From contig JADFQA010000001.1 of NCBI GenBank assembly GCA_022562055.1, positions 1-64,000 on the forward strand: a stretch of 64,000 nt of DNA, written 5' to 3'. The position numbers were made by a program, and so were the translations under genes. Position 1 is the stretch's first letter; every line of letters starts with the position of its first letter. The notes below the pieces were generated by a model. That model worked only from the letters and a program-made list of their open reading frames with translations, was not told the DNA's origin and made no database searches. Positions 1-49,681 of the stretch are shown here, one piece after another. Origin of the DNA: Acidobacteriota bacterium. GTDB taxonomy: Bacteria > Actinomycetota > Acidimicrobiia > Spongiisociales > UBA5794.

Positions 1-145
1 GTTCTTCGTGGGGTACTGGCCCCCTGGGTGGGGTGACGTAGAGTGGTGGGGGGGTGAGGTGGTGGGCGAGGGTGTCGAGGCGTTGGGCGATCTGGTCGAG
101 GGCGGCGAGTATCGTGCGTTTCCATGCGGCGGGGTAGTGGGTCAT
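1..145 (-). CDS. Small unknown protein, partial at window edge
   Basis: The reading frame starts with ATG at 145 and stays open to the left edge, so 48 codons are visible. Its start overlaps the stop of the SWIM gene by four bases (ATGA), the same coupling seen between the other genes of this minus-strand operon; that is the main reason to call it real. The visible protein begins MTHYPAAWKRTILAALDQIA, a likely amphipathic helix, and becomes proline-rich. I recognise no family. It is the seventh visible gene of the integrated element's early operon. Confidence 0.5.
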   Translation of the reverse strand, partial: MTHYPAAWKRTILAALDQIAQRLDTLAHHLTPPPLYVTPPRGPVPHEE

Positions 146-375
146 TTTGTCTCCGTTCGGGTGGTGAGGGTGACGGTTTGTAGGGCAGTGATGTGGGAGC
201 AGGTACGGGTGCGGGCGGGGCAATCGCAGTGCCAGCCCGACGGGTCGCATCCGACTTTGTAGGTTCCGTGGTCGCCGATGATGGTGGCGGCGATGGTGTC
301 GACGGTGAGGGAACGCACTGTGAGGTGTCCGGTGGCGAGTAGCCGCTTGGCCTTGCTCTCGGTGGTTTCAGTCAT
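142..375 (-). CDS. Small SWIM-type zinc finger protein
   Basis: A 77-residue protein. The second half carries the SWIM pattern CxC...CxH: HCDCPARTRTCSH, at about residues 49-61. SWIM fingers bind zinc and usually mediate DNA or protein contacts; small stand-alone versions are common in actinobacterial phages and integrative elements. The start ATG at 375 overlaps the stop of the upstream ATPase gene by four bases, so translation is probably coupled. The partner or target cannot be read from the sequence. Confidence 0.7.
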   Translation of the reverse strand: MTETTESKAKRLLATGHLTVRSLTVDTIAATIIGDHGTYKVGCDPSGWHCDCPARTRTCSHITALQTVTLTTRTETK

Positions 376-1691
376 TGGGACCCCCCGGGGGTGGTGGGGG
401 TGGCTGTGCCCGGGTGGGGTTCGGTGACGATCTCAGCATCGAAAACTGTGGCGATTTCCTCGCCGCTGAGAAGCGGATCATCACCACGAACTTGCGCACC
501 CTTGGGCGAACTTGCGCACCCATTATGTGTGAGCAACTTCGTGGCTTCGTGATCAAGTTCGGCGACGAGCCGCCAGGACCAGCCACCCTTCATTCCATCT
601 TTTGACGACTCAATGCGCCCCTCCCGGCGAAGCTCGGAACGGGCGCGGACGGCGGTTCCCTCCGACACTCCCTCCGCTTTGACGAGGCGAACGAGGGCGG
701 TCCACCGTTCGTCCGATTGACTTAGGGCGTCGACGATGACTTCGCGGGCGATGTCCCTCTCGCTCCGGTCGGCGTCGGGTTCGGCGTCGGTGAGGAGGTC
801 ACTTGCCTGCGCGGTTGTCTCACCCAGCCACACGAACCCCGAGGTGTTGATGTCGCCACCCGCGCGATCTTGGATGGTTCGACTCTCGATCTCGAACTTG
901 AGGGCACGAGCGAGCCTGGAGAGGTTCGATTTAACATGCACTAGGTACCGCACTGGCGAGTTGTCGTCGTCGGGGTCGGCAGCGAACAGCAAAACTGATC
1001 TAGCGGCGTTGCCGAACGCAACACTTCCGCCGAGGCGGGTTAAGGGGTTCGTTGAGGCTGATTTGTTGAGGTGTGACACTCCGAGTACTGCTACGCCGGT
1101 TGCTTCCGCGAGGGCGTGCAGCGGGCCGAGTGCCCTTCGCACCGAGTGGTCGCGGTGCGAGTCAAGGGTGGACGAGAGATGCGCGACCAGGGGATCAAGG
1201 ACGAGCATCTCCGCCGACTCGGCTTCGATCGCTGTTTCGAGCTCGGCGAGGTCGTCCGGCAGCGTGATCCCGTTCTCGAAACCAGCTTCGACGACCGAAA
1301 CGAAGTGTATAAGATCGAGGTCGGCTCCGGCTGCGATGAGCCTGGGTACCAAAGTGTGTGATCTCGAATCTTCGACGGTCGCGAAGATCACTGCTGCCGG
1401 GGATCGGCCAAGCTGGCCGCGCGAAACTCTCGCCGCGATTTCACACACCAAGCTCGTTTTGCCGAGTCCACCCGTCCCGATGAGCAGCGTGATCGCTTGT
1501 AACGGGATTCTGCCGTCCCAAAGCCACACAGGGGTTTCGGGCGGGATTGCCGATGCCGAGACCAGCCGTAGCCCGTCCCGCTGTTCCGGGACCGCACCAA
1601 CGGCGGCCTGTTGCGCCTGGTACCGGCTTTCGGCGTCGTCGAGGTACGCGACGGTTTCTGCACCCGTCAAGTACCGGGGTTTATCGTTCAC
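372..1691 (-). CDS. AAA-family ATPase, RepA/KaiC-like, of integrated element
   Basis: A 439-residue P-loop ATPase, probably the replication or DNA-handling ATPase of the element. Walker A is IGTGGLGKTS at about residues 71-80, and a Walker B-like strand, EMLVLDPL, has its acid at about 166. This matches the RecA/KaiC-type AAA_25 proteins next to replication genes in actinobacterial plasmids and phages. The C-terminal third (about 330-400) looks like a winged helix, with a run of small residues then ELRREGRIE. I chose GTG at 1691 because the 49-aa gene upstream ends at 1681, giving an 11-base overlap in line with the rest of the operon. A longer frame opens at 1772 but would overlap that gene by 92 bases. 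ATPase fold is fairly sure; replication role is inferred. Confidence 0.75.
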   Translation of the reverse strand: MNDKPRYLTGAETVAYLDDAESRYQAQQAAVGAVPEQRDGLRLVSASAIPPETPVWLWDGRIPLQAITLLIGTGGLGKTSLVCEIAARVSRGQLGRSPAAVIFATVEDSRSHTLVPRLIAAGADLDLIHFVSVVEAGFENGITLPDDLAELETAIEAESAEMLVLDPLVAHLSSTLDSHRDHSVRRALGPLHALAEATGVAVLGVSHLNKSASTNPLTRLGGSVAFGNAARSVLLFAADPDDDNSPVRYLVHVKSNLSRLARALKFEIESRTIQDRAGGDINTSGFVWLGETTAQASDLLTDAEPDADRSERDIAREVIVDALSQSDERWTALVRLVKAEGVSEGTAVRARSELRREGRIESSKDGMKGGWSWRLVAELDHEATKLLTHNGCASSPKGAQVRGDDPLLSGEEIATVFDAEIVTEPHPGTATPTTPGGSQ

Positions 1692-1830
1692 TGTTAACCC
1701 GTCCCTCGTGCAGTCTCCGCCAAGCGGCTTTGCGCCGGAGGACGATCTCACTACACGACTCGCAACGCCCAACAGCGCACATACAGCGGCCCGAGTGTGC
1801 GGTCCTCTTGCGGCGGGGTCGGCGACTCAT
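1681..1830 (-). CDS. 49-aa basic Cys-rich protein
   Basis: A small frame of 49 codons. The protein is very basic at the start (SRRPRRKR) and has a cluster of five cysteines at about residues 18-29 (CMCAVGRCESC), suggesting a zinc-binding knuckle. The start ATG at 1830 overlaps the stop of the 27-aa frame by four bases, and its stop lies inside the start region of the ATPase gene. These overlaps are the support for coding. I recognise no family. Confidence 0.5.
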   Translation of the reverse strand: MSRRPRRKRTAHSGRCMCAVGRCESCSEIVLRRKAAWRRLHEGRVNSER

Positions 1831-1910
1831 GCGTCGGTTCTGGCGCTGCTGCGTCCCCGCCCTGGAGGCACCGGACCGCCGAACACCAACTGCGTGTCGG
1901 TAGGTTGCAT
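1827..1910 (-). CDS. 27-aa peptide, linker frame of coupled operon
   Basis: A very short frame that begins MQPTDTQLVFGGPVPPG. Its ATG shares one base with the stop of the excisionase-like gene (TGATG at 1908-1912) and its TGA overlaps the next ATG (1827-1830). It therefore fills exactly the gap between two genes and may act mainly as a translational relay. No homology can be claimed for so short a peptide. Confidence 0.35.
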   Translation of the reverse strand: MQPTDTQLVFGGPVPPGRGRSSARTDA

Positions 1911-2107
1911 CAGGTTGCCGCTCTTCGGTGCTTCTCATCGACGCCGAGCACGGCGAGCAACGGCGCTCGGGGAATGAGCAGCCGCCGACCGACACGCAGC
2001 ACGACAACACCCGCGAGTTCTCCGTCGCGGCGGGCGAGCTGATAGGCAGTGTTGCGGCTCACGCCGAGGAGTTCCGCAGCCTCGGGAATGGTCAGGGTCG
2101 CGTTCAT
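1910..2107 (-). CDS. Excisionase/MerR-type helix-turn-helix protein
   Basis: A 65-residue DNA-binding protein. After the start comes TIPEAAELLGVSRNTAYQLA, the winged-HTH signature of the excisionase (HTH_17) family, then a wing with VLRVGRRLLIP. Such proteins direct integrase toward excision or act as small regulators in actinobacterial integrative elements. I used the ATG at 2107, not a longer frame to 2188, because it overlaps the XRE gene stop by four bases (ATGA) and begins directly before the conserved domain. It is the second gene of the element's minus-strand operon. Confidence 0.8.
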   Translation of the reverse strand: MNATLTIPEAAELLGVSRNTAYQLARRDGELAGVVVLRVGRRLLIPRAPLLAVLGVDEKHRRAAT

Positions 2108-2331
2108 CGGGCGCCTGCGATGTCTTCGAGGAGCTTGGCGTAATCTCGGGCGTGGCGGGGTCTGGGGACTCGTGCCCCGTTCTCCCACCGCAGGACCGTG
2201 GATTGTGAAACGTCGAGCACCATGGCGACGTCACGGAGTGACAGCCCGGCGGAACGTCGGATAGTTGCACCGGCGGCGCGGATCAGGGTCCGTGCTCGGA
2301 TCGTCTCAACCAGGTTTCGTGTTGCGTTCAT
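2104..2331 (-). CDS. XRE-family helix-turn-helix repressor-like protein
   Basis: A 75-residue protein with one HTH_3/XRE domain at about residues 25-65: LSLRDVAMVLDVSQSTVLRWENG, where the WENG turn is diagnostic. It is the first gene of the minus-strand operon and faces the divergent DNA-binding protein/integrase operon, so it is the best candidate for the element's switch protein. No ribosome binding site is visible, but a promoter (TTGACG, 17 bases, CAAGGT) ends six bases before the ATG, suggesting a leaderless transcript. The dyads at 2361-2376 and 2397-2438 are possible operators. Confidence 0.8.
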   Translation of the reverse strand: MNATRNLVETIRARTLIRAAGATIRRSAGLSLRDVAMVLDVSQSTVLRWENGARVPRPRHARDYAKLLEDIAGAR

Positions 2332-2337
2332 GGCAAC

Positions 2338-2366
2338 ACCTTGGCGTACCGGGAACCCTACGTCAA
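2338..2366 (-). promoter_or_regulatory. Candidate leaderless promoter of the XRE operon
   Basis: Read on the minus strand: -35 TTGACG (2366-2361), 17-base spacer, -10 CAAGGT (2343-2338), then six bases to the ATG at 2331. The -35 lies in an imperfect dyad, CGTCAAGACCTTAACG (2361-2376, 12 of 16 positions symmetric), which could be an autoregulatory operator. Confidence 0.45.
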
Positions 2367-2396
2367 GACCTTAACGTATGCCTTTATCCGGTCAGA

Positions 2397-2438
2397 GAAT
2401 CGGGAACCTTCATAGTGTTGCCAAAACATTCCCGATTC
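2397..2438. promoter_or_regulatory. Candidate operator: 10-bp perfect inverted repeat
   Basis: GAATCGGGAA (2397-2406) and TTCCCGATTC (2429-2438) are perfect inverted copies separated by 22 bases, in the divergent region of the element. The right arm lies inside the spacer of the plus-strand promoter, so a protein bound there would block RNA polymerase. The XRE or excisionase-like protein is the obvious candidate binder. Confidence 0.55.
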
Positions 2439-2446
2439 GGTAGGGT
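2418..2446 (+). promoter_or_regulatory. Candidate leaderless promoter of the integrase operon
   Basis: -35 TTGCCA (2418-2423), 17-base spacer, -10 TAGGGT (2441-2446), then seven bases to the ATG at 2454. Transcription would start at or next to the A of the start codon. The same TAGGGT with six bases to the ATG recurs at 8869. Confidence 0.5.
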
Positions 2447-2453
2447 GGGGGCT

Positions 2454-3053
2454 ATGACGACATTGCCGACGCAACATGCATTCGGGTGGCCCGATCCGTT
2501 CACAGGGCCGTGGATGCTCACCGTCCACACTGCCGCAGTAAACGGGCGTATGGAGTGTGTCGGCCTGAGCGTGATGGCGTATGCCGACTCTGGCGACCTT
2601 CCGATGGGCAACGTCCCTGGCTCGGATGCGATCGTCAACGGAGAGGACACTGTGAACCGGGTCGAGCCGGTACGAACGTCAACGCTGCGAAGTATCCCCC
2701 TCGGCGATCTGATGTCGAAGATCACCCAAGAAGCCATCGACAAGGGACCGGCCCGGATCGAGAGGGTTCAGTGGTCGGATTACGAGGAGGAGCGCCTCGA
2801 AGCTGCGAAGGCGTCCACAGCCGGGCGAGGTGGTCGCAAAGGCCACAGCCCGGAACACTACGCCGAGGTAGCCCGGGTGTACAGCGCCGCGTGGGCTCAG
2901 GGCGGCTATCCGACAAAGGCTGTCGCCGAGAAGTGGATCGTGGCGAAGCCGACAGCGGCGAAGTGGGTTTCACGGGCGCGGACCCTGGGCCTACTCGAAC
3001 CGACATCTAAGGGGCGAGCAGGCGGCATCCCCACCCAAGGAGACGACGAATGA
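2454..3053 (+). CDS. Element DNA-binding protein upstream of integrase
   Basis: A 199-residue protein of unknown exact role. The N-terminal 110 residues show no motif I recognise. A segment near residue 125 is rich in G, R and K. The C-terminal part (about 135-185) looks like a helix-turn-helix: VAEKWIVAKPTAAKWVSRAR, typical of proteins that bind repeats near the integrase gene. Its stop overlaps the integrase start by four bases (ATGA, 3050-3053), so the two are cotranslated. I chose ATG at 2454 because the promoter at 2418-2446 leads directly into it; a longer frame from 2265 would run back over the divergent XRE gene. Confidence 0.6.
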   Translation: MTTLPTQHAFGWPDPFTGPWMLTVHTAAVNGRMECVGLSVMAYADSGDLPMGNVPGSDAIVNGEDTVNRVEPVRTSTLRSIPLGDLMSKITQEAIDKGPARIERVQWSDYEEERLEAAKASTAGRGGRKGHSPEHYAEVARVYSAAWAQGGYPTKAVAEKWIVAKPTAAKWVSRARTLGLLEPTSKGRAGGIPTQGDDE

Positions 3054-4231
3054 GCGAACGCAGACCTAAAGGCACAGGGAACATCCGCGAACGCGGGGGT
3101 CGCTTCCAGGCCACCTACTCATACATGGACGCGACGGGCAGACGCCGACTGAGATCGGAGACGTTCGACACCAAGACCGAAGCCCGTGCATGGTTGACTG
3201 CCCGGCTCGCCGAGGTAGCTACAGGCCGCGTCTCTGATCCCGGTACTTTAACCGTCGGAGAGTATCTACAGGATTGGCTCGGCTCGTTGGGCATGGCTCA
3301 GCTCGAAGCGGCGACCGTATCGTGGTATCGGTCCGCGGTGATCCGCCACATCATCCCGGCGTTGGGCGGTGTGAAGCTGTCGAAGCTGTCGGCGATCCAG
3401 GTCGAGGCGTTCCTGGCGGAGAAGGCGGAGAACGGTCGTCTCGACGGTAAGGGAGGTCTGGGACCCGTGAGCGTGCGGCGGCTGCATGTGACGTTGCGTA
3501 AGGCGCTGGCTGCGGCTGTGCGTAAGGGCATGTTGGCCACCAACCCCGTCGACCTGGCCGACAAACCGAAGATACCGCCTGTCGACGTGACAGAAAGCTG
3601 CTGGACGCCGGAGCACATGACGGCGTTCCTCGAAGCAACCAAGGCCGACCGGCTAGCTCCGCTGTGGCGGACCGCGTGCATGACCGGCCTTCGACGTTCC
3701 GAGCTTTGCGGGTTGCAGTGGCCGGACATCGATCTCGATGCCGGTGTTCTGTCGGTGAAACGGGCGATGGTGCAGGTGGACGGCAAGCCGATTCTGAAAG
3801 GCCCGAAGTCTGCGTCGTCGCGCCGGGCTGTGGACTTCGACGCTGGAACGGTGGCGGTGCTGAGACGGTGGAAGGTGAGCCAGCTCGAGGAGCGTCTGCT
3901 GGCTGGGACCGCGTGGGAGCAAGGCGATTGGGTGTTCACCAACGAGATCGGGGCACCGTGGCGACCGGATTCGCTCACCAAGACGTTCCTGAAGACTGCC
4001 AGGGCGACAGAGCTTCCACGAACCGATGTCAGGGGCTTGCGTCATGCTCACGCCACCGCGATGCTCCGTGCCGGTGTGCATCCCAAGGTTGTTCAGGAGC
4101 GTCTCGGACACTCGTCGATCGCGGTGACGATGGACATCTACAGCTCGGTGCTGCCGGGGATGCAGCGCGAAGCCATCGACCGGCTTGCCTCGATGATGGA
4201 GCCTGGACGCGGCCCGATAGATGGCGGATAG
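3050..4231 (+). CDS. Tyrosine site-specific integrase
   Basis: A 393-residue phage-type tyrosine recombinase that would integrate and excise the element. The N-terminal arm-binding domain (about 1-60, RERGGRFQATYSY) is followed by a SAM-like core-binding domain (about 65-150) and the catalytic domain (about 180-380). The visible catalytic residues are the first Arg in TGLRRSEL (about 213), the His/Arg box GLRHAHATAML (about 328), LGHSSIAVT and the nucleophile Tyr in MDIYSSV (about 365). It looks complete. It lies next to a tRNA/tmRNA-like 3' fragment at 4297-4340, the expected place for the attachment site. Confidence 0.93.
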   Translation: MSERRPKGTGNIRERGGRFQATYSYMDATGRRRLRSETFDTKTEARAWLTARLAEVATGRVSDPGTLTVGEYLQDWLGSLGMAQLEAATVSWYRSAVIRHIIPALGGVKLSKLSAIQVEAFLAEKAENGRLDGKGGLGPVSVRRLHVTLRKALAAAVRKGMLATNPVDLADKPKIPPVDVTESCWTPEHMTAFLEATKADRLAPLWRTACMTGLRRSELCGLQWPDIDLDAGVLSVKRAMVQVDGKPILKGPKSASSRRAVDFDAGTVAVLRRWKVSQLEERLLAGTAWEQGDWVFTNEIGAPWRPDSLTKTFLKTARATELPRTDVRGLRHAHATAMLRAGVHPKVVQERLGHSSIAVTMDIYSSVLPGMQREAIDRLASMMEPGRGPIDGG

Positions 4232-4267
4232 ATGGCGCGAGCGGTAGGCGCGCACCGAGGAAGAGAC

Positions 4268-4294
4268 AGAAACCCCCGCTATGCAAGGGTTTCT
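4268..4294. terminator. Hairpin after integrase, possible terminator or att arm
   Basis: AGAAACCC (4268-4275) and GGGTTTCT (4287-4294) form an 8-bp stem with an 11-base loop, between the integrase stop and the tRNA-like fragment. There is no clear T-tract, so it could be a terminator or part of the attachment region. Confidence 0.4.
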
Positions 4295-4296
4295 GG

Positions 4297-4340
4297 GGTG
4301 GAGCTGAAGGGATTCGAACCCTTGACCCCTTGACGGACTG
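4297..4340 (-). other. 3' fragment of tRNA-Ala or tmRNA, candidate att site
   Basis: Read on the minus strand: a perfect T arm AAGGGTTCGAATCCCTT, then the acceptor strand CAGCTCC, discriminator A and CC. A 3' strand CAGCTCC pairs with GGGGCTG through the G3:U70 wobble, the mark of tRNA-Ala and of tmRNA. The bases 5' of the T arm do not give a D arm or a GGGGCTG strand within tRNA distance, so only the 3' part is present. Actinobacterial elements commonly integrate at such ends, so this is probably the attachment core. The overlapping CTGTTAA on the plus strand resembles a tRNA-Asn anticodon loop, but no further tRNA-Asn structure is there. Confidence 0.5.
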
Positions 4341-4436
4341 TTAAGCCGTGTGTCGTGGGGTCCTCTGTCCTGTTCCAGTGTCTGCTGGGACTCATGGTGG
4401 CGCACGGGCTAAAGTCGTCATCGAGGGAGTAGATCC

Positions 4437-5639
4437 GTGCAGATCGACATTCACCAGGCGATACAGCAGCAAACCGAGCTGATGCAGCAGGTGAGCAGGT
4501 TCGTACATTCTCATCCTGAGCTTGGTTACGAAGAGTATCAGTGCTCCGATTACCTGGTGGGCGTTCTTGAGCAGTTGGGCCTGGATGTCATACGACCGGT
4601 GGCTGGCATCCGTACTGCCTTTCGGTCCACTCTCAAGGGCACAACCAAGGATGGACCGCGTGTGGGGCTAGTGATGCTCTACGATGCGGTTCCCGCCGTG
4701 GGTGAAGACGGCGCCTATATTCCCAATCACTCGTGCGGGCACAACGTGATCTCCGGGGCTGTTGTGGGTGCGGTGGCAGCATTGAGTCAAGGTCCCCGCC
4801 GCGGAGAACTGACAGTGATAGGTATGTCTGGAGACGAGATCGGTGCGCCGATGGTCGCTCAGCACGGCGGGAGTAAGGCTCTGACCGCGGCGGTAGGCGA
4901 ATGGGATGAGTTTGACGCAGTCCTATACGCGCATCCGGAGTTCAACAACACGGTATCTCATGTCTCGCGCTGGATGGAGCGTTACCGCCTGTCGTTGCAT
5001 CACCCTCGGGGCTTCAAACAGCGTGGCGAATTGCAAGGTTCCGTGCCGTGGGCGGTGCAGGCGTTGCTACAGGTGGTGCGTTCGATGGAGGAGTCTGACA
5101 CCCAAGAATTCGTGATGGTTAAGGATCTCTGGATGAACGGCGACGTTGAGGCCGATTGCAAGGTCAACGCGCAGATGCAGGTCTTGCTGTTCGGACTGAC
5201 TCAGGCGGATGTCACCCAGCGGGCAACTCGGCTGAGACAAGCGGTTGAGGCAGTTGGTGATGGTGCACAGATTGTCGTTGAGTTGGAACAGATCGGAGAT
5301 CCGTATATGGGTGTGAACCCTAACCCAACCCTCACCTCTGTGGTGCATCAGGCCATGAGAGATTCGGGCCTCGAGGTGTTGTTTGACCCGGAACCGCTTC
5401 CGTTCGCCACCGATTTTGGCAACATCAGCTATCGCGCGCCGAGCGTGCTCATCGGAACTGGGCGAGAAGGTGGCTGGCAGTTTCATGGCAGTGAGGGAGA
5501 TAGAGAATTCAGCAGTTCAGATGGGAATCGAGTGATGATGGCAACAGCCGAAGTCCTAGCTCGGGCCACTATGCGTCTGTGGGAGGAGCCCGAACTGGTT
5601 GGCCGGGCACGAACGGAATTCGACGAAAGGCTTCGGTAA
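4437..5639 (+). CDS. M20-family amidohydrolase (AbgB/ACY1L2-like)
   Basis: A 400-residue zinc amidohydrolase of the M20D branch, which cleaves N-acyl amino acids or aminobenzoyl-glutamate type amides in the cytoplasm. Visible motifs are HSHPELGYEE near residue 24, the metal-ligand region YDAVP (about 83), NHSCGHN (about 100), GDEIGAP (about 134), where the family usually has EE, YAHPEF and a C-terminal metal-ligand region near FHGSEGD. Start is GTG at 4437, with GAGGGAG 9 bases upstream. It begins just outside the integrated element. The codon choice is a little more AT-rich than the housekeeping genes. The substrate cannot be predicted. Confidence 0.8.
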   Translation: MQIDIHQAIQQQTELMQQVSRFVHSHPELGYEEYQCSDYLVGVLEQLGLDVIRPVAGIRTAFRSTLKGTTKDGPRVGLVMLYDAVPAVGEDGAYIPNHSCGHNVISGAVVGAVAALSQGPRRGELTVIGMSGDEIGAPMVAQHGGSKALTAAVGEWDEFDAVLYAHPEFNNTVSHVSRWMERYRLSLHHPRGFKQRGELQGSVPWAVQALLQVVRSMEESDTQEFVMVKDLWMNGDVEADCKVNAQMQVLLFGLTQADVTQRATRLRQAVEAVGDGAQIVVELEQIGDPYMGVNPNPTLTSVVHQAMRDSGLEVLFDPEPLPFATDFGNISYRAPSVLIGTGREGGWQFHGSEGDREFSSSDGNRVMMATAEVLARATMRLWEEPELVGRARTEFDERLR

Positions 5640-12555: not shown

Positions 12556-13875
12556 ATGTACGACTCGATTCTCGAATTGCTGCCGGACGTGGACAATCCA
12601 ACCCCGCTAGTCCGAATCAACCGTGTCACACCGTTCAAGCACACTCGTGTATACGCAAAGCTTGAGTGGTACAACCCGTTCGGAGCCGTTAAGGATCGCG
12701 TTGCGGCCAACCTCATCGAAGAGGCGGAGGACGATGACGTGATTCTTGCGGCGCAAAAACTTGTCGAGGCGACGTCGGGTAACACCGGTCTCGGTCTTGC
12801 GATGATCGCAAACGCTCGCGGGTATTCTCTAACGACGCCTATATCAACACAAGTTCCCTTGGAGAAGCGGACGATGCTGCGGGTGTTTGGCGCCGACGTC
12901 ATCGAGCTTGATGACGACCTGTGCCCCGCACCGGGAGCACCCGAAGGTGCGATCGCCAAGGCGACCGAACTTGATGCGTTGCCAGAGTTTCACATGCTCA
13001 ACCAGTATGTGAATATTTCGAACCCCAACGCCCACTACAAAACCACCGGACCGGAAATCTGGCGTCAGACAGGTGGTCAGATAACGCACTTCGTGGCAAG
13101 CCTCGGTACTTGCGGCACAATTTCTGGCACGGGGAGATTCTTGAAAGAACAGGACGCCGATGTGCAGGTTCTTGCAGTTCATCCCAACGAAGGGCACGAC
13201 ATCCCCGGTGTTCGCAGCATCCGTCAGCTCCCGCAGACCAAGTTCTTTCAGCCTGACGAGTACGATGGAATGGTCGAGATTCAAAATCAGGCCGCATTCG
13301 ACCTTTGCCTGCGGCTGAACCGAGAGGAAAGCATCACTGCGGGGCCGAGTTCGGGGTTGGCGCTCGCCGGAGCATTCGAACTTGTGCCGGACGAGCCAGG
13401 CAACCTTGTGGTGGTGGTGTTTCCGGACAGCATCTTCAAATACGCGTCTTCTGTCGTGCGGCATCTCCCGGGACTCGGTTCGGTTCCGGCGCCGACGAAG
13501 GGGAAACAGGAAATCCTGCTTGAAGGAATGATCGAGAACACGCGGGCAAACATAAATCTCACGATCAGCGTCGACGCAGCCAGCGATCTCATGCGTGATG
13601 AGCAACCGTTCCTCCTGGACGTGCGTGAGACAGCGCCCTACGGCACCTCGCACGTACCAGAGGCTGTCAACATTCCACTCCACGATCTGTCGGACAGAAG
13701 GTCAGAATTGCCTGCCGACAAAGACGCACCGGTCCTCACGATTTGCGAGCGTGGCAATATCTCACTGCCGGCGGTCCTCTTTCTCACTAGTCTTGGATAC
13801 ACCGACGTTCGTAGTATCGACGGGGGCACACAAGCCTGGCGGGAACAAGGATTGGCCACAACGCAGTCATTATGA
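12556..13875 (+). CDS. Cysteine synthase-like PLP enzyme fused to rhodanese
   Basis: A 439-residue fusion. The N-terminal part (about 1-320) is a fold-type II PLP enzyme of the cysteine synthase/cystathionine beta-synthase group: PTPLVRINR, the PLP lysine in NPFGAVKDR, the substrate loop EATSGNTG and the phosphate loop GTCGTISGTG. The C-terminal part (about 335-435) is a rhodanese domain with LLDVRE and an active-site loop ICERGNIS carrying the sulfur-accepting Cys. It would make cysteine or handle sulfane sulfur in the cytoplasm. Start could be GTG at 12535 or ATG at 12556; I prefer ATG because YDSILE is where family members begin. A -10 hexamer TACAAT lies at 12502-12507. The stop overlaps the next gene by four bases. 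Confidence 0.82.
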   Translation: MYDSILELLPDVDNPTPLVRINRVTPFKHTRVYAKLEWYNPFGAVKDRVAANLIEEAEDDDVILAAQKLVEATSGNTGLGLAMIANARGYSLTTPISTQVPLEKRTMLRVFGADVIELDDDLCPAPGAPEGAIAKATELDALPEFHMLNQYVNISNPNAHYKTTGPEIWRQTGGQITHFVASLGTCGTISGTGRFLKEQDADVQVLAVHPNEGHDIPGVRSIRQLPQTKFFQPDEYDGMVEIQNQAAFDLCLRLNREESITAGPSSGLALAGAFELVPDEPGNLVVVVFPDSIFKYASSVVRHLPGLGSVPAPTKGKQEILLEGMIENTRANINLTISVDAASDLMRDEQPFLLDVRETAPYGTSHVPEAVNIPLHDLSDRRSELPADKDAPVLTICERGNISLPAVLFLTSLGYTDVRSIDGGTQAWREQGLATTQSL

Positions 13876-22962: not shown

Positions 22963-24165
22963 GTGCAAGCTTCAGGCTCACAAACCCTAATTCTCATCGC
23001 CGCGGCAGCCTTTGTGATCCCGCTGATCGGGGCACGTGTACGTCTCCCAGCGGTGGTTCTCGAAATGTCATTTGGGTTACTCATCGGACCGGTGCTGCAG
23101 ATTGTCGGCGAGGAACCCGAACTTATCCAGCAACTCGGAGAGATCGGCTTCTTGCTGCTGATGTTTCTCTCTGGATTCGAGATCGATCTTGGGGCCATCG
23201 AACGTCAGGGCCCGCGGTTGGTGTTTTGGGCCGTCGGTGTCTTTGTGGTGACTCTCGTGACTGCGTTCATTGTCGGAAGAACTCTTGGATTCGATGATCC
23301 GATATTCGCCATGCTGTTACTTGCCCCAACGTCAGTGGGGATCGTTGTGCCGACCCTTCGAGAAACCGGTCACGGTCCGTCGAAACTAGGGCAAGCGATT
23401 CTGCTCGCGGCATTGGTGGCCGACCTGTTCACTCTCATCGGCCTCACGACCTGGGCGTTGATTCGCCAGCAGGGCGCGGGTGTCGAGCTGCTGTTTATCC
23501 CGGCGTTTTTCACCATCGCCGCGATTTCTCTACTCATCCTCAAGCGAGCAGCGTGGTGGTACCCCGAGAAGTTTGAACGCCTATTTGGCGACCATGATCC
23601 TGCCGAGATGGGGATTCGGGCATCCCTCGCGTTCATGCTCGTTTTTGTCGGTCTGGCGGGTGCGTTTGGGATTGAAGCGATTCTCGGCGCATTCCTCGCT
23701 GGAGCCGTGTTCGCAATGGTCTTTCGCGAGAGGGGAGCGTTAGATAACAAGCTTTTCGGGTTCTCCTACGGGTTCCTCATCCCCATCTTCTTCATCAACG
23801 TTGGGATAGAATTTGATCTTGACGCGATGAGCGAGCCAGGCGTTTGGGGAAATACACTCAAGCTGGTTGGTGCGTCGCTTGCTGTAAAGATGGCGGCTTC
23901 GACGATTTTGTTCTTTCGCGGCTTCACCGTTCGTGAAGTGCTTTCTACAGGGTTTCTCCTGTGGCCAAAAATTAGCTTGCTGATCGCTATTGAGGAAGTG
24001 GGCCGAGAGCTCGGAATCATTGACCCCGGCGAATCCGCGGGAATCATTTTGCTGGCAGCCCTTTCCGCCGCGATCTCCCCGATTCTGTTCAGGGCGGTTG
24101 CGCCCAAAGTCAGAGACGGCGAGACTCCTTCGGCGTCTCCACCGCGAGATCGGTATACGACATGA
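22963..24165 (+). CDS. Cation:proton antiporter, CPA2/KefB type
   Basis: A 400-residue membrane protein with about 11-12 hydrophobic segments, starting LILIAAAAFVIPLIGARVRLP. It has the CPA2 layout: LPAVVLEMSFGLLIGP, a discontinuous helix region LLMFLSGFEIDLGAIE, APTSVGIVVPTLRE, and FGIEAILGAFLAGAVFA. No RCK/TrkA_N domain follows, so it is a Na+/H+ or K+/H+ exchanger core without a nucleotide gate. Start GTG at 22963. Its stop overlaps the hutH start by four bases, so it is cotranslated with histidine ammonia-lyase, an unusual pairing. It could help with ion or pH balance during histidine use, but this is inference. Confidence 0.82.
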   Translation: MQASGSQTLILIAAAAFVIPLIGARVRLPAVVLEMSFGLLIGPVLQIVGEEPELIQQLGEIGFLLLMFLSGFEIDLGAIERQGPRLVFWAVGVFVVTLVTAFIVGRTLGFDDPIFAMLLLAPTSVGIVVPTLRETGHGPSKLGQAILLAALVADLFTLIGLTTWALIRQQGAGVELLFIPAFFTIAAISLLILKRAAWWYPEKFERLFGDHDPAEMGIRASLAFMLVFVGLAGAFGIEAILGAFLAGAVFAMVFRERGALDNKLFGFSYGFLIPIFFINVGIEFDLDAMSEPGVWGNTLKLVGASLAVKMAASTILFFRGFTVREVLSTGFLLWPKISLLIAIEEVGRELGIIDPGESAGIILLAALSAAISPILFRAVAPKVRDGETPSASPPRDRYTT

Positions 24166-38577: not shown

Positions 38578-39171
38578 GTGCTCGATCTCAAAGGTCGCAG
38601 TCGAGTTGCACCGCTGCTTGATCCGATAGCAAAGGCGCTGTCGTGGGCGAAACTTACGCCGACGGCGGTGACCGTCGCCGGACTCCTCGCTTCTATCGGC
38701 GGTGCAATACTCGTTGCAAGACAGGACTGGACGATCGGAGCGGTAATCATTGCGGTGGGGACGTTTCTTGATGCCCTCGACGGACCGCTAGCGCGTCTTC
38801 AGGGGACTGCGTCGACCAAGGGTGCGTTTATTGACACGATGTCTGACCGTTTTGGCGAGCTTGCGGTGTGGGCTGGTCTGATCTTTTCTTTGAGGACCAA
38901 CGACCTTGCACTCATGTTGGCGGTCTTTTCTCTCGGCTTTTCACTCCTCATCCCGTACGTTCGAGCGAAGGCGGAGAGTTGGGATGCCGAGGGGCGCGGC
39001 GGCTGGATGGGGCGTGCCGAACGTATGATTCTTCTCGTCGGTGGGATTTTTGCTGCCGGATTCGACCTTGATGTCGACGTAATGCTCCCGATGTTGTGGA
39101 TCATGATGGTTTTGACCGGGGTCACCGTTGGCCAACGGATTCGTAACACTTGGGCTCAGCTCCCCGAATGA
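38578..39171 (+). CDS. pgsA: Phosphatidylinositol phosphate synthase (CDP-alcohol transferase)
   Basis: A 197-residue membrane enzyme with about six helices. The CDP-alcohol phosphotransferase signature DGxxAR(8)Gx3Dx3D is complete: DGPLARLQGTASTKGAF then IDTMSDR (about 66-92). In actinobacteria this position codes for PIP synthase, which links CDP-diacylglycerol and inositol phosphate to give the base lipid for mannosides. Start GTG at 38578. It overlaps the acyltransferase gene by four bases, which overlaps the mannosyltransferase gene by four bases: a tight three-gene PIM operon. Confidence 0.88.
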   Translation: MLDLKGRSRVAPLLDPIAKALSWAKLTPTAVTVAGLLASIGGAILVARQDWTIGAVIIAVGTFLDALDGPLARLQGTASTKGAFIDTMSDRFGELAVWAGLIFSLRTNDLALMLAVFSLGFSLLIPYVRAKAESWDAEGRGGWMGRAERMILLVGGIFAAGFDLDVDVMLPMLWIMMVLTGVTVGQRIRNTWAQLPE

Positions 39172-40055
39172 GGGATTGGCTGGGTTACGCCGTCTACCGA
39201 ACTCTCTCCGGCGCCTTCGGACTGTTGCCGGCGCCAGTGATGCGCCGCGTCGGTTCTGGCATTGGTCGGTTGTCGTCCTACTTCTTGAAAGAACGAAAAC
39301 GTCTCATCGGCCGGCACCTCCAACGCGCCATCGGCGAACCTCCGTCACAGCGACTTATTCGCGATTCCTTTGCCAGCTATGGTCGGTACTGGGCTGAGGT
39401 CTTTTGGATCCGCCCAAGACGGAAAGCCTCGTTCGTGGCGGGCACCGAAGTTATCGGCATGGAACACGTTCTTGCTGCGGTGGCCGGTGGCAACGGCCTC
39501 ATCATGGGTGTTGTCCACTCGGGTAACTGGGAAGCCGCGGGAAGTGTGGCCGAGTCGGTGGGGCTACGGACACTAGCTGTGGCCGAGGGTCTCAAGAACG
39601 AGAGAATCGTTGAGTGGTTCAAATGGTGTCGCGAGTCGATGGGGATTGAGATCGTAGTCGCCCGTAAGGGGTCGGCTGCTACCAGAAATCTCCTGGCGAA
39701 ACTTAAGTCCGGCGGCATGATCGCGTTGGTGTCTGATCGTGTGACCGGACCCAAAGGTGTGCCGGTGCGATTTTTCGGTGAGATGACAACGATTCCCGCG
39801 GGTCCCGCGGCGTTGGCGGACAAGACCGGGGCCGCACTGCTCCCAGTTGGGTGTTTCTTCAACGATGGGCCCGGGCACACGATCGTGGTGAGTGCGCCCA
39901 TTGAGATACCATCCAATGTGAAAGACAAGACGGAGCGGGTTGCACTCATCGCGCAACGACTGGCCACGGCGTATGAAGATCTGATCCGGCGTCGACCGCA
40001 GGATTGGCACATATTTATGGAGAACTGGCCGAGCGATGCTGCGGACCGCACATGA
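39168..40055 (+). CDS. Phosphatidylinositol mannoside acyltransferase (PatA-like)
   Basis: A 295-residue member of the HtrB/LpxL/PatA acyltransferase family. The HX4E catalytic motif is HSGNWE (about 115), followed by NLLAKLKSGGMIALVSDRV and the RFFGEMTTIPAGPAALA segment with the conserved FFG.....P.GPA. It transfers an acyl chain to the mannose of PIM on the cytoplasmic membrane face. ATG at 39168 overlaps the pgsA stop (ATGA); a frame open from 39150 is not needed. Role assigned by family plus position between pgsA and pimA. Confidence 0.85.
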   Translation: MRDWLGYAVYRTLSGAFGLLPAPVMRRVGSGIGRLSSYFLKERKRLIGRHLQRAIGEPPSQRLIRDSFASYGRYWAEVFWIRPRRKASFVAGTEVIGMEHVLAAVAGGNGLIMGVVHSGNWEAAGSVAESVGLRTLAVAEGLKNERIVEWFKWCRESMGIEIVVARKGSAATRNLLAKLKSGGMIALVSDRVTGPKGVPVRFFGEMTTIPAGPAALADKTGAALLPVGCFFNDGPGHTIVVSAPIEIPSNVKDKTERVALIAQRLATAYEDLIRRRPQDWHIFMENWPSDAADRT

Positions 40056-47858: not shown

Positions 47859-48179
47859 GTGTTGCCTGTTGTGATGCAGATACTCGCTCAAAGTGGGAGT
47901 AGCGATTCGGGCGCAACGTTTTTGGGGTTGCTGCCGCTGGTCGTCATCGGCGGTTTGTTTTACGTCATGATGATTCGTCCACAAAAGCGCCGCGCGCGTG
48001 CCTCGCAAGCGCTGCGCGATTCCGTTTCCGTTGGTGACGAGATCCGTACCGTCGGTGGGATCCTCGGCCGCATTGTCGATGTCGACGATGAAGAGATCGG
48101 CCTCGAGGTGGCTCCCGGCTTGACGATCCGGCTGACTCGGAGGGCTATCGGCGAACGGCTCGACGGTAGCGACGAATGA
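47859..48179 (+). CDS. yajC: Preprotein translocase subunit YajC
   Basis: A 106-residue membrane protein: one helix (FLGLLPLVVIGGLFYVMMIRP, about 17-37) with the typical end RPQKRRA, then a small cytoplasmic domain (VGDEIRTVGGILGRIVDVDD). YajC binds SecDF in the holotranslocon. Starts possible at GTG 47859 or TTG 47862, both close to GGAGG at 47850. It overlaps secD by four bases (ATGA at 48176). Confidence 0.9.
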   Translation: MLPVVMQILAQSGSSDSGATFLGLLPLVVIGGLFYVMMIRPQKRRARASQALRDSVSVGDEIRTVGGILGRIVDVDDEEIGLEVAPGLTIRLTRRAIGERLDGSDE

Positions 48180-49681
48180 CTCGAAATCTTTTCATGAGAG
48201 CCGCAGCTATGGCTGTGTTTTCGTGGGTGCTCGTCGGCGGGTTGATCGCTACGGGACACACGCCCAAACTTGGGCTCGATCTCCGTGGTGGGTTCGCTGT
48301 CGTTCTCCAAGCACCCGAAGGCACCGACAAAGAAGTCATGGACAAGGCCGTCGAGATCATGCGCAAACGAATCGAAGGACTTGGCGGCGTGCAGGAACCC
48401 GAGATTTCGGTTCAGGGGGCAACCTCAATCCTCGTGCAACTGCCGGGTGTTGAGGATCGCGAACGCGCTCTTGAGGCTGTCGGCACAACCGGAACACTCT
48501 CATTTCGGCCGGTACTCGCCCGCGGATTTGTGAGTCCTGCATTCCAGGACGGTACCTTGCCGTTGCCCGACTCGTTGAGCGACAGCACGACAACGGCCGC
48601 GCCTGACGCGGCAGCTACGGTACCGGACAACCTTGATCCAGAAACTGGGTTGACGATTTCAGACGATCCGGATCAGACGTCGTATTTGCAAGGGGACGAT
48701 GGTTTTGTCTATCAGGTCGGACCCGCGTTTCTGACCGGTGCGGACATCACGGGTGCGACACCGTCGTTCGGCCAACACACCGGCGGGCGTTGGGTTGTCG
48801 TTCCACGATTCACCTCCGAGGGCGCGCAGAAATTTGAAGACGGGACAGCGGCCCTGACGCTCTTCGCGCCGAACGATCCACGTCGCGCAATGGCCATCGT
48901 CGTCGATGGTCTGGTGACATCGGCGCCAACGATCGATAGCCGACTGCAACCGGGTGAGTTTCTTTCGGCTTCGGGCGTGCAGATCACCATTGGAGCTGTC
49001 GAAGACGCCCAGACCGAGGCGCAAGATCTTGCGTCGCTGCTTCGCTACGGTGCACTTCCCACCGAACTCGAACGTCAGCGCGTAGAGTCCGTGTCAGCAA
49101 GCCTCGGCTCGGATTCGCTCCGCGCCGGACTCATTGCGGGCATCGGTGGTCTGCTGTTCGTGGCCGGCGCACTCATCGCGTACTACCGGGTGCTCGGGTT
49201 GGTTGCGGTTATTGGCCTAACGATCTTCGGATCGTTGCTGGTCACCCTCCTGATCCTCATGGGGATAGTCCAGGGAACCACACTTACGCTGGCGGGGGTA
49301 ACCGGAATTATCGTGTCTGTGGGGATAACGGCGGATTCGTACATCGTGTTTTTTGAGAGGATCAAGGAAGAACATCGCAAGGGCAAACCGCTGCGCCCCT
49401 CGGTGGATTTCGGATTTGAACGCGCATTCTCGACCATCATAAAGGGCGATACTGTGACGTTTATGGGTTCCATCCTGCTGTGGTTGCTCGCTATCGGGCC
49501 GGTAAAGGGCTTTGCAATCACACTCGGCATAGCAACAGTTGTCGACGTGGTTGTCGCGTACTACTTCACCCGACCCGCGGTGATGTTTCTGGTTCGATCA
49601 CGCCTCGGTGAGGGTGGTGCGTTCAGCATCCGCGGTGCCACCGGCAGAACAAACGACGAGTCCGAGGGGGTCACTGCGTGA
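48176..49681 (+). CDS. secD: Protein translocase subunit SecD
   Basis: A 501-residue RND-type membrane protein that uses the proton gradient to pull exported proteins from the Sec channel. First membrane helix at about 8-27, then LGLDLRGGFAVVLQ (D1 motif), a large extracytoplasmic domain (about 40-310) including an acidic/Thr-rich insert near 125-170, ATTRY-region counterpart LFAPNDPRRAMAIVVDG, and five further helices from about 320. The insert is typical of actinobacterial SecD. It overlaps yajC and secF by four bases each. Confidence 0.94.
   Translation: MTRNLFMRAAAMAVFSWVLVGGLIATGHTPKLGLDLRGGFAVVLQAPEGTDKEVMDKAVEIMRKRIEGLGGVQEPEISVQGATSILVQLPGVEDRERALEAVGTTGTLSFRPVLARGFVSPAFQDGTLPLPDSLSDSTTTAAPDAAATVPDNLDPETGLTISDDPDQTSYLQGDDGFVYQVGPAFLTGADITGATPSFGQHTGGRWVVVPRFTSEGAQKFEDGTAALTLFAPNDPRRAMAIVVDGLVTSAPTIDSRLQPGEFLSASGVQITIGAVEDAQTEAQDLASLLRYGALPTELERQRVESVSASLGSDSLRAGLIAGIGGLLFVAGALIAYYRVLGLVAVIGLTIFGSLLVTLLILMGIVQGTTLTLAGVTGIIVSVGITADSYIVFFERIKEEHRKGKPLRPSVDFGFERAFSTIIKGDTVTFMGSILLWLLAIGPVKGFAITLGIATVVDVVVAYYFTRPAVMFLVRSRLGEGGAFSIRGATGRTNDESEGVTA

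Follow-up and report, generated by a model that had tools for sequence, protein, structure and literature searches.

In the Gram-positive PICIs, the integrase gene and a regulator are read in one direction and xis diverges from them together with the replication genes, and the origin is located immediately 3' to rep, where two iteron sets flank an AT-rich region (PMC6092414). Bacteriophage lambda carries four iterons inside gene O (PMC4488673), and mycobacteriophage RepA prophages have likewise been suggested to carry their origin in repA or beside it (PMC7157519). Outside the model phages, the origins of small integrative elements and of AAA_25 replicons are mostly unmapped. The locus described here is found at the start of the window, that is, the whole stretch of 64,000 nucleotides that was analysed, whose position 1 is base 1 of the assembly contig C1. 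It comprises a cassette of seven overlapping genes read leftward from position 2331 and a divergent operon with a tyrosine integrase. We read the cassette, with a probability of roughly 62%, as the early operon for excision and replication of a small integrative element, in which the 3' end of the ATPase gene holds the origin. Literature searches returned no paper on this gene set.

As in PICIs of the SaPI type, int and its neighbour gene run one way in the window, while xis and a replication gene diverge from them; the regulator role of the neighbour is suggested by its position, the one basis for it. Two inverted repeat sets are likewise present near the 3' end of the replication gene, although an AT-rich spacer is not evident. 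Unlike in PICIs, the coding frame itself contains the repeats, the operon encodes small Cys-rich and SWIM proteins, no homologue of a SaPI-type pri or rep was identified, and the replication gene is of the AAA_25 type without a primase domain; the likeness is one of gene layout and repeats. With lambda O the locus shares four short repeats within the coding frame of a replication gene. However, O is an initiator and the window protein an ATPase, and the lambda repeats are direct and mid-gene, whereas those of the window are two plus two inverted, near the 3' end.

The AAA_25/RepA-type plasmid helicases and the phage primase-helicases have in common with the window protein the PF13481 domain and a C-terminal region, and AAA_25 helicases beside HTH/AlpA-type and integrase genes, as here, are found on a Ruegeria megaplasmid and in G319, another genome of the class. 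Unlike these relatives, at about 30% identity, the window protein has no primase domain, and three divergent types occur in one cassette family. Actinobacterial integrative and conjugative elements (AICE) of the pSAM2 type also place their integrase, Xis and replication genes next to a tRNA-like site, but the visible part of the window element is without a conjugation gene and its replication protein is not tied to RepSA, RepAM or Prim-Pol. No FtsK/TraB-type translocase was found in window positions 1-4330, and the element runs on past the contig end.

Two divergent operons beside a tRNA-like fragment

The leftward operon, entirely on the minus strand, opens with an HTH_3/XRE repressor-like protein of 75 aa (2104-2331; PF01381 E 3e-10, PF13560 E 1e-9), followed by an excisionase, xis, of the HTH_17/MerR type with 65 aa (1910-2107; PF12728 E 1e-11; TIGR01764 'excise' at 36.2 bits, cut-off 28.8). 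Next are a 27-codon frame (1827-1910) and a basic four-cysteine protein of 49 aa, probably a zinc knuckle, with the pattern RC-x-C-x4-C-x2-C ... RRKxAWRR (1681-1830); neither product had a match in the family libraries searched. The following gene encodes a 439-aa AAA_25 ATPase of the hexameric-helicase type (372-1691; PF13481 E 3e-28, 99.4 bits against a gathering cut-off of 27), which also matches PHROGs primase/helicase families and has as relatives phage primase/helicases and the AAA ATPases of small plasmids. Family searches detected no primase domain in it, and a winged helix is proposed for its C-terminal region, which ends in GGWSWRL. A PDB sequence search with this protein gave weak RadA-type matches at best, and a structure model computed without an alignment was unusable (pLDDT 37). 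The operon continues with a SWIM-type protein of 77 aa, CxCx6CxH (142-375), and a last gene (2-145). The window SWIM-type protein itself has no Pfam SWIM match; its homologues on contigs C39 and C67 fall just short of the PF04434 cut-off (19.6), the best score being 19.4 for C67, and the CxCxnCxH motif is conserved in three copies.

All six junctions leftward of 2331 were verified as overlaps, as had been described from the letters alone: ATGA at 2104-2107, TGATG at 1908-1912, ATGA at 1827-1830, an 11-base overlap of the Cys-rich and ATPase genes at 1681-1691 (GTGAACGATAA), and ATGA at 372-375 and at 142-145. Four-base overlaps are frequent elsewhere in the window, the ORF table giving them at 13872-13875, 24162-24165, 39168-39171, 40052-40055, 48176-48179 and 49678-49681, so the coupling style as such is ordinary here. 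The chain at this locus nevertheless exceeds chance, since three sister cassettes in the same genome overlap at nearly every junction. Because contig C1 starts at window position 1, it includes only the first 48 codons of the seventh gene and lacks the other end of the element; the first 145 bases of the window gave no join to another contig of the assembly. The excision junction, the full size and any cargo thus lie outside the contig.

Between the operons, the putative divergent promoter/operator region (2332-2453) has inverted repeats at 2397-2406/2429-2438 (10/10) and 2331-2339/2415-2423 (9/9), and no sigma-70-like promoter was found in it. The rightward operon, on the plus strand, consists of a 199-aa protein without a family above cut-off (2454-3053), for which a regulator function is suggested by position as noted above, and a tyrosine integrase of 393 aa (3050-4231; PF00589 E 1e-22, PHROG integrase E 8e-76), the two genes overlapping by ATGA. 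At this locus a site-specific recombinase and an excisionase are adjacent. Beyond the integrase, on the minus strand, stands the 3' half of a tRNA-Ala-like sequence (4298-4334; 2 mismatches in 29 bases against an intact tRNA-Ala(GGC)), a probable attachment-site remnant. Its exact partner is absent from the assembly, where the other end of the element is missing. The 3' end of this half faces the integrase and no 5' half is seen on the far side, an orientation unusual for a simple tRNA insertion; tandem elements or rearrangement may account for it. Insertion in the tmRNA gene was ruled out, as the 3' end is unlike that of the genome's own ssrA.

Sister cassettes and the fate of the small frames

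By searching the genome with its own ATPase, integrase and Cys-rich protein, three sister cassettes were located on contigs C22, C39 and C67, along with an ATPase relic on C46. On C22 (L014), xis (261-491), the Cys-rich gene (122-271) and an ATPase gene starting at 132 are followed by the contig end, and the regulator side shows a gene at 602-1024, an integrase at 1021-2253 and a tRNA-Leu. On C39 (L016), xis (3168-3371), the Cys-rich gene (3034-3171), the ATPase gene (1787-3037), a DUF2399/TOPRIM-like gene (827-1732), the SWIM gene and the last gene (61 aa) are present, and the integrase (3997-5055) adjoins a tRNA 3' half. The C67 cassette (L040), in which every junction overlaps, comprises an HTH_3 gene (5213-5449), xis (5022-5213), the Cys-rich gene (4873-5022), the ATPase gene (3537-4883), an acidic ORF, the SWIM gene and the last gene (75 aa). 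Common to all sisters are xis, a four-cysteine protein of 45-49 aa and the AAA_25 ATPase, while SWIM and the last gene were found again wherever the sister contig extends far enough. Three of the four cassettes (C1, C22 and C67) have an identical 11-base overlap of the Cys-rich and ATPase genes, which further sets the chain apart from chance.

The gene set is less rigid than the first-pass annotation had supposed. Gene order and near-universal overlaps are indeed retained in the sisters, but the proposed fixed stoichiometry of seven genes is not supported: none of the three sisters has the 27-codon frame, the HTH_3 gene is missing from C22 and C39 (2/4 cassettes carry it), C39 has the inserted TOPRIM-like gene and C67 the acidic ORF, and the ATPases differ. 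As those of C1, C39 and C67 show an identity of only about 26%, and this along part of the protein, the helicase appears to be an exchangeable part, swapped between divergent types.

The two small frames fared differently. The absence of both from relatives had been named as evidence against the chain, and it is borne out for the 27-codon frame and contradicted for the 49-codon frame, which is kept under purifying selection in the sisters. The three same-genome homologues of the Cys-rich protein are 53-73% identical to the window copy, with all four cysteines invariant across the four copies and dN/dS at 0.11-0.31 in 6/6 pairs; by these measures of conservation it is a real gene. This putative zinc-knuckle protein provides an example of a micro-gene overlooked by annotation and kept by selection. 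The SWIM gene is also under purifying selection (dN/dS 0.18-0.22). The 27-codon frame was discarded as a conserved gene, as it has no counterpart in the three sisters, where xis adjoins the Cys-rich gene directly. Its end (ARTDA*) resembles that of the C39 xis (TKTDA*), both finishing in the same ATGA, and this likeness suggests that the frame is a probable scar of recombination between elements with different xis genes.

Several smaller observations concern the same genome. The TOPRIM-like protein of C39 (827-1732, minus strand) has 301 aa, lies between the ATPase and SWIM genes and is weakly JetD-like in PADLOC; between it and the ATPase gene (1738-1759) is a perfect 22-bp palindrome, ATTTTCCTTCCGGAAGGAAAAT, beside a repeated CCCCCAATTTT. 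On C46 (L015, 88-480, minus strand), an SLH-like repeat gene has the 3' relic of an ATPase gene fused into it in the opposite orientation. A SWIM gene fragment on C38 (L084, G000:C38:98-226), in a contig region with a stop, is a possible fifth cassette remnant. The integrase of C28 (L017 262-2124, G000:C28) is 41% identical to that of the window, with a co-directional gene before it, and possibly marks a further element cut by the contig end. Behind the C67 cassette (L040 1808-2685, minus strand), a truncated tyrosine recombinase and a small coiled-coil-type ORF are followed by a gene that by eye is transposase-like, as if a mobile element had inserted there.

An inverted repeat array inside the ATPase gene

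The window ATPase gene contains, 113-190 bases before its stop, a dyad repeat array (487-561, minus strand) of four units at an exact 20-bp pitch, a candidate origin with initiator-binding iterons. The units are CGAACTTGATCACG and CGAAGTTGCTCACA, then the inverted GGGTGCGCAAGTTCG twice (507-521 and 487-501). The C46 relic retains the same four-unit array with the last two units jointly altered to GGGTGGTCAAGTTC, so that two neighbouring repeats differ between the elements and are identical within each. The array of C39 and C67 is of another kind, two mirror sets of GGTAAC hexamers, located within a shared 98-bp block that is 94% identical in otherwise dissimilar ATPase genes (~26%). Three other genomes of the class (G017, G319 and G202) have arrays of their own at the corresponding place. 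The array was first spotted by eye, and the tests on C1, C39, C46, C67, G017 and G319 are therefore post hoc; G202 was read after the idea had formed.

In the C1 array region, 25 7-mer pairs were counted against a null mean of 6.9 (0/100 shuffles), and its inverted-repeat score of 11 was exceeded in 0/40 dinucleotide shuffles. Scores of 12.5-29.5 were obtained for C46, C39, G017, G319 and G202 (0/40 each) and a score of 10 for C67 (1/40), and earlier stretches of the same genes showed an excess of inverted repeats in 0/6 testable genes. When whole genes were shuffled by synonymous codons, C1, C39 and C46 remained above chance (0/30 each) and G017 was borderline (1/30), with the C67 array not above chance (7/30). 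The 11 plasmid and phage relatives examined at greater distance gave a mixed result: in 3 both measures exceeded the shuffles, in 4 the inverted repeat alone did (one resembling a terminator, two having the same sequence), and in 4 neither did. The array rule is thus not universal for AAA_25. No strongly AT-rich stretch is seen next to the window array.

The array might instead be an mRNA hairpin or an operator-type binding site through which expression of the SWIM genes downstream is adjusted, with no origin involved, a reading which is unlikely but still plausible. Folded as RNA, the arrays score well (z -3.5 for C39, -2.6 for C1), the final genes of the operon begin just downstream of them, and C39 and C67 have in common both the array and a 77%-identical SWIM region. 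However, the arrays lack a T-run or terminator, the units of C1 and C46 recur at exactly 20 bp (two helix turns), which, with the concerted change of two of them, fits protein-bound iterons, and in G319 and G202 the arrays stand at the AAA_25 3' end with different downstream genes. For the origin reading, the binder is itself a question raised by the sisters: as C39 and C67 share the array and not the ATPase type, it may be another protein, such as the shared SWIM protein; alternatively, the 3' block of the two may have been moved by recombination.

Possible activity, proposed course and relatives

The cassettes could also be decaying prophage or phage-satellite remnants, inactive now and conserved through past selection only. 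The ATPase fragment of C46 fused to an unrelated gene and the SWIM fragment of C38 are what this would predict, as are the IS-like genes beside C39 and C67 and the terminase-like genes adjoining the related ATPase or primase-helicase in G017 and G202. Such a state is nonetheless improbable for C1, C39 and C67, whose visible genes are all open, with dN/dS well below 1 and the coupling intact. An anti-phage or toxin-antitoxin unit, to which one operon with a small regulator, zinc proteins and an ATPase would be suited, was rejected as highly improbable, given that the PADLOC matches (an HTH of MADS and the JetD-like DUF2399 protein of C39) are weak and cover no more than generic HTH or TOPRIM domains, that Xis and the integrase are adjacent and that the ATPase matches replication families.

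The first-pass annotation saw in the locus a replication/excision module belonging to an integrative element of actinobacterial type, and this view is well supported by the HTH_3 protein, Xis, the replication relatives of the AAA_25 ATPase, the divergent tyrosine integrase, the tRNA-like fragment and the sister copies. The sequence itself establishes what Int, Xis and the ATPase domain are, the sister cassettes, the repeat arrays, and that the Cys-rich and SWIM genes are kept by purifying selection; we infer excision, replication, an origin function, zinc binding and binding of the array by the ATPase, in the following course. Control of two divergent operons, the rightward with regulator and integrase and the leftward with xis, Cys-rich, ATPase and SWIM genes, would probably lie with the HTH_3 protein and with operator dyads in the interval 2331-2454; translation of the leftward operon is presumably coupled through the overlapping start and stop codons. 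Upon derepression, the element would be excised by Int and Xis. As a hexameric helicase of the RecA type, the AAA_25 ATPase could then bind the array at 487-561 in its own gene via its C-terminal region and open or load there, such that the excised circle would replicate ahead of re-integration or transfer. Accessory DNA-binding roles, perhaps in loading or regulation, would fall to the zinc-knuckle and SWIM proteins.

More tentatively, and as something quite possible rather than probable, the cassettes can be seen as a so far undescribed family of small integrative elements that occur in several copies in a genome, with a conserved frame of xis, four-Cys and SWIM genes, exchangeable AAA_25 helicases and an origin made of an inverted iteron array in the helicase 3' end, where protein tail and DNA target would diversify together. 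The in-gene repeat array is the part that deserves a laboratory test. If true, a 3' inverted-repeat rule for helicase genes would be cheaply testable across genomes and would yield ready-made minimal replicons.

Sampling the class and the phylum for relatives, with 375-396 genomes per sample, we found convincing homologues of the Cys-rich protein in this genome only, ATPase relatives in a handful of other genomes and SWIM relatives in three. Cys-rich matches in six other genomes of the phylum were rejected, as none stood in an element context and several were out of frame or contained stops. Pattern scans of genome contigs and viral contigs retrieved no relatives. The distant ATPase relatives in G017 and G319 (34-43% identity) are without both small frames and retain the xis-ATPase overlap, and G319 represents a minimal element, with xis overlapping the ATPase gene, then the integrase. 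The set of relatives looks actinobacterial. As a separate observation, the primase gene of Microbacterium phage OneinaGillian (L092 2936-3206) has a pronounced array of repeats close to the 3' end, with 54 7-mer pairs against a null mean of 9.
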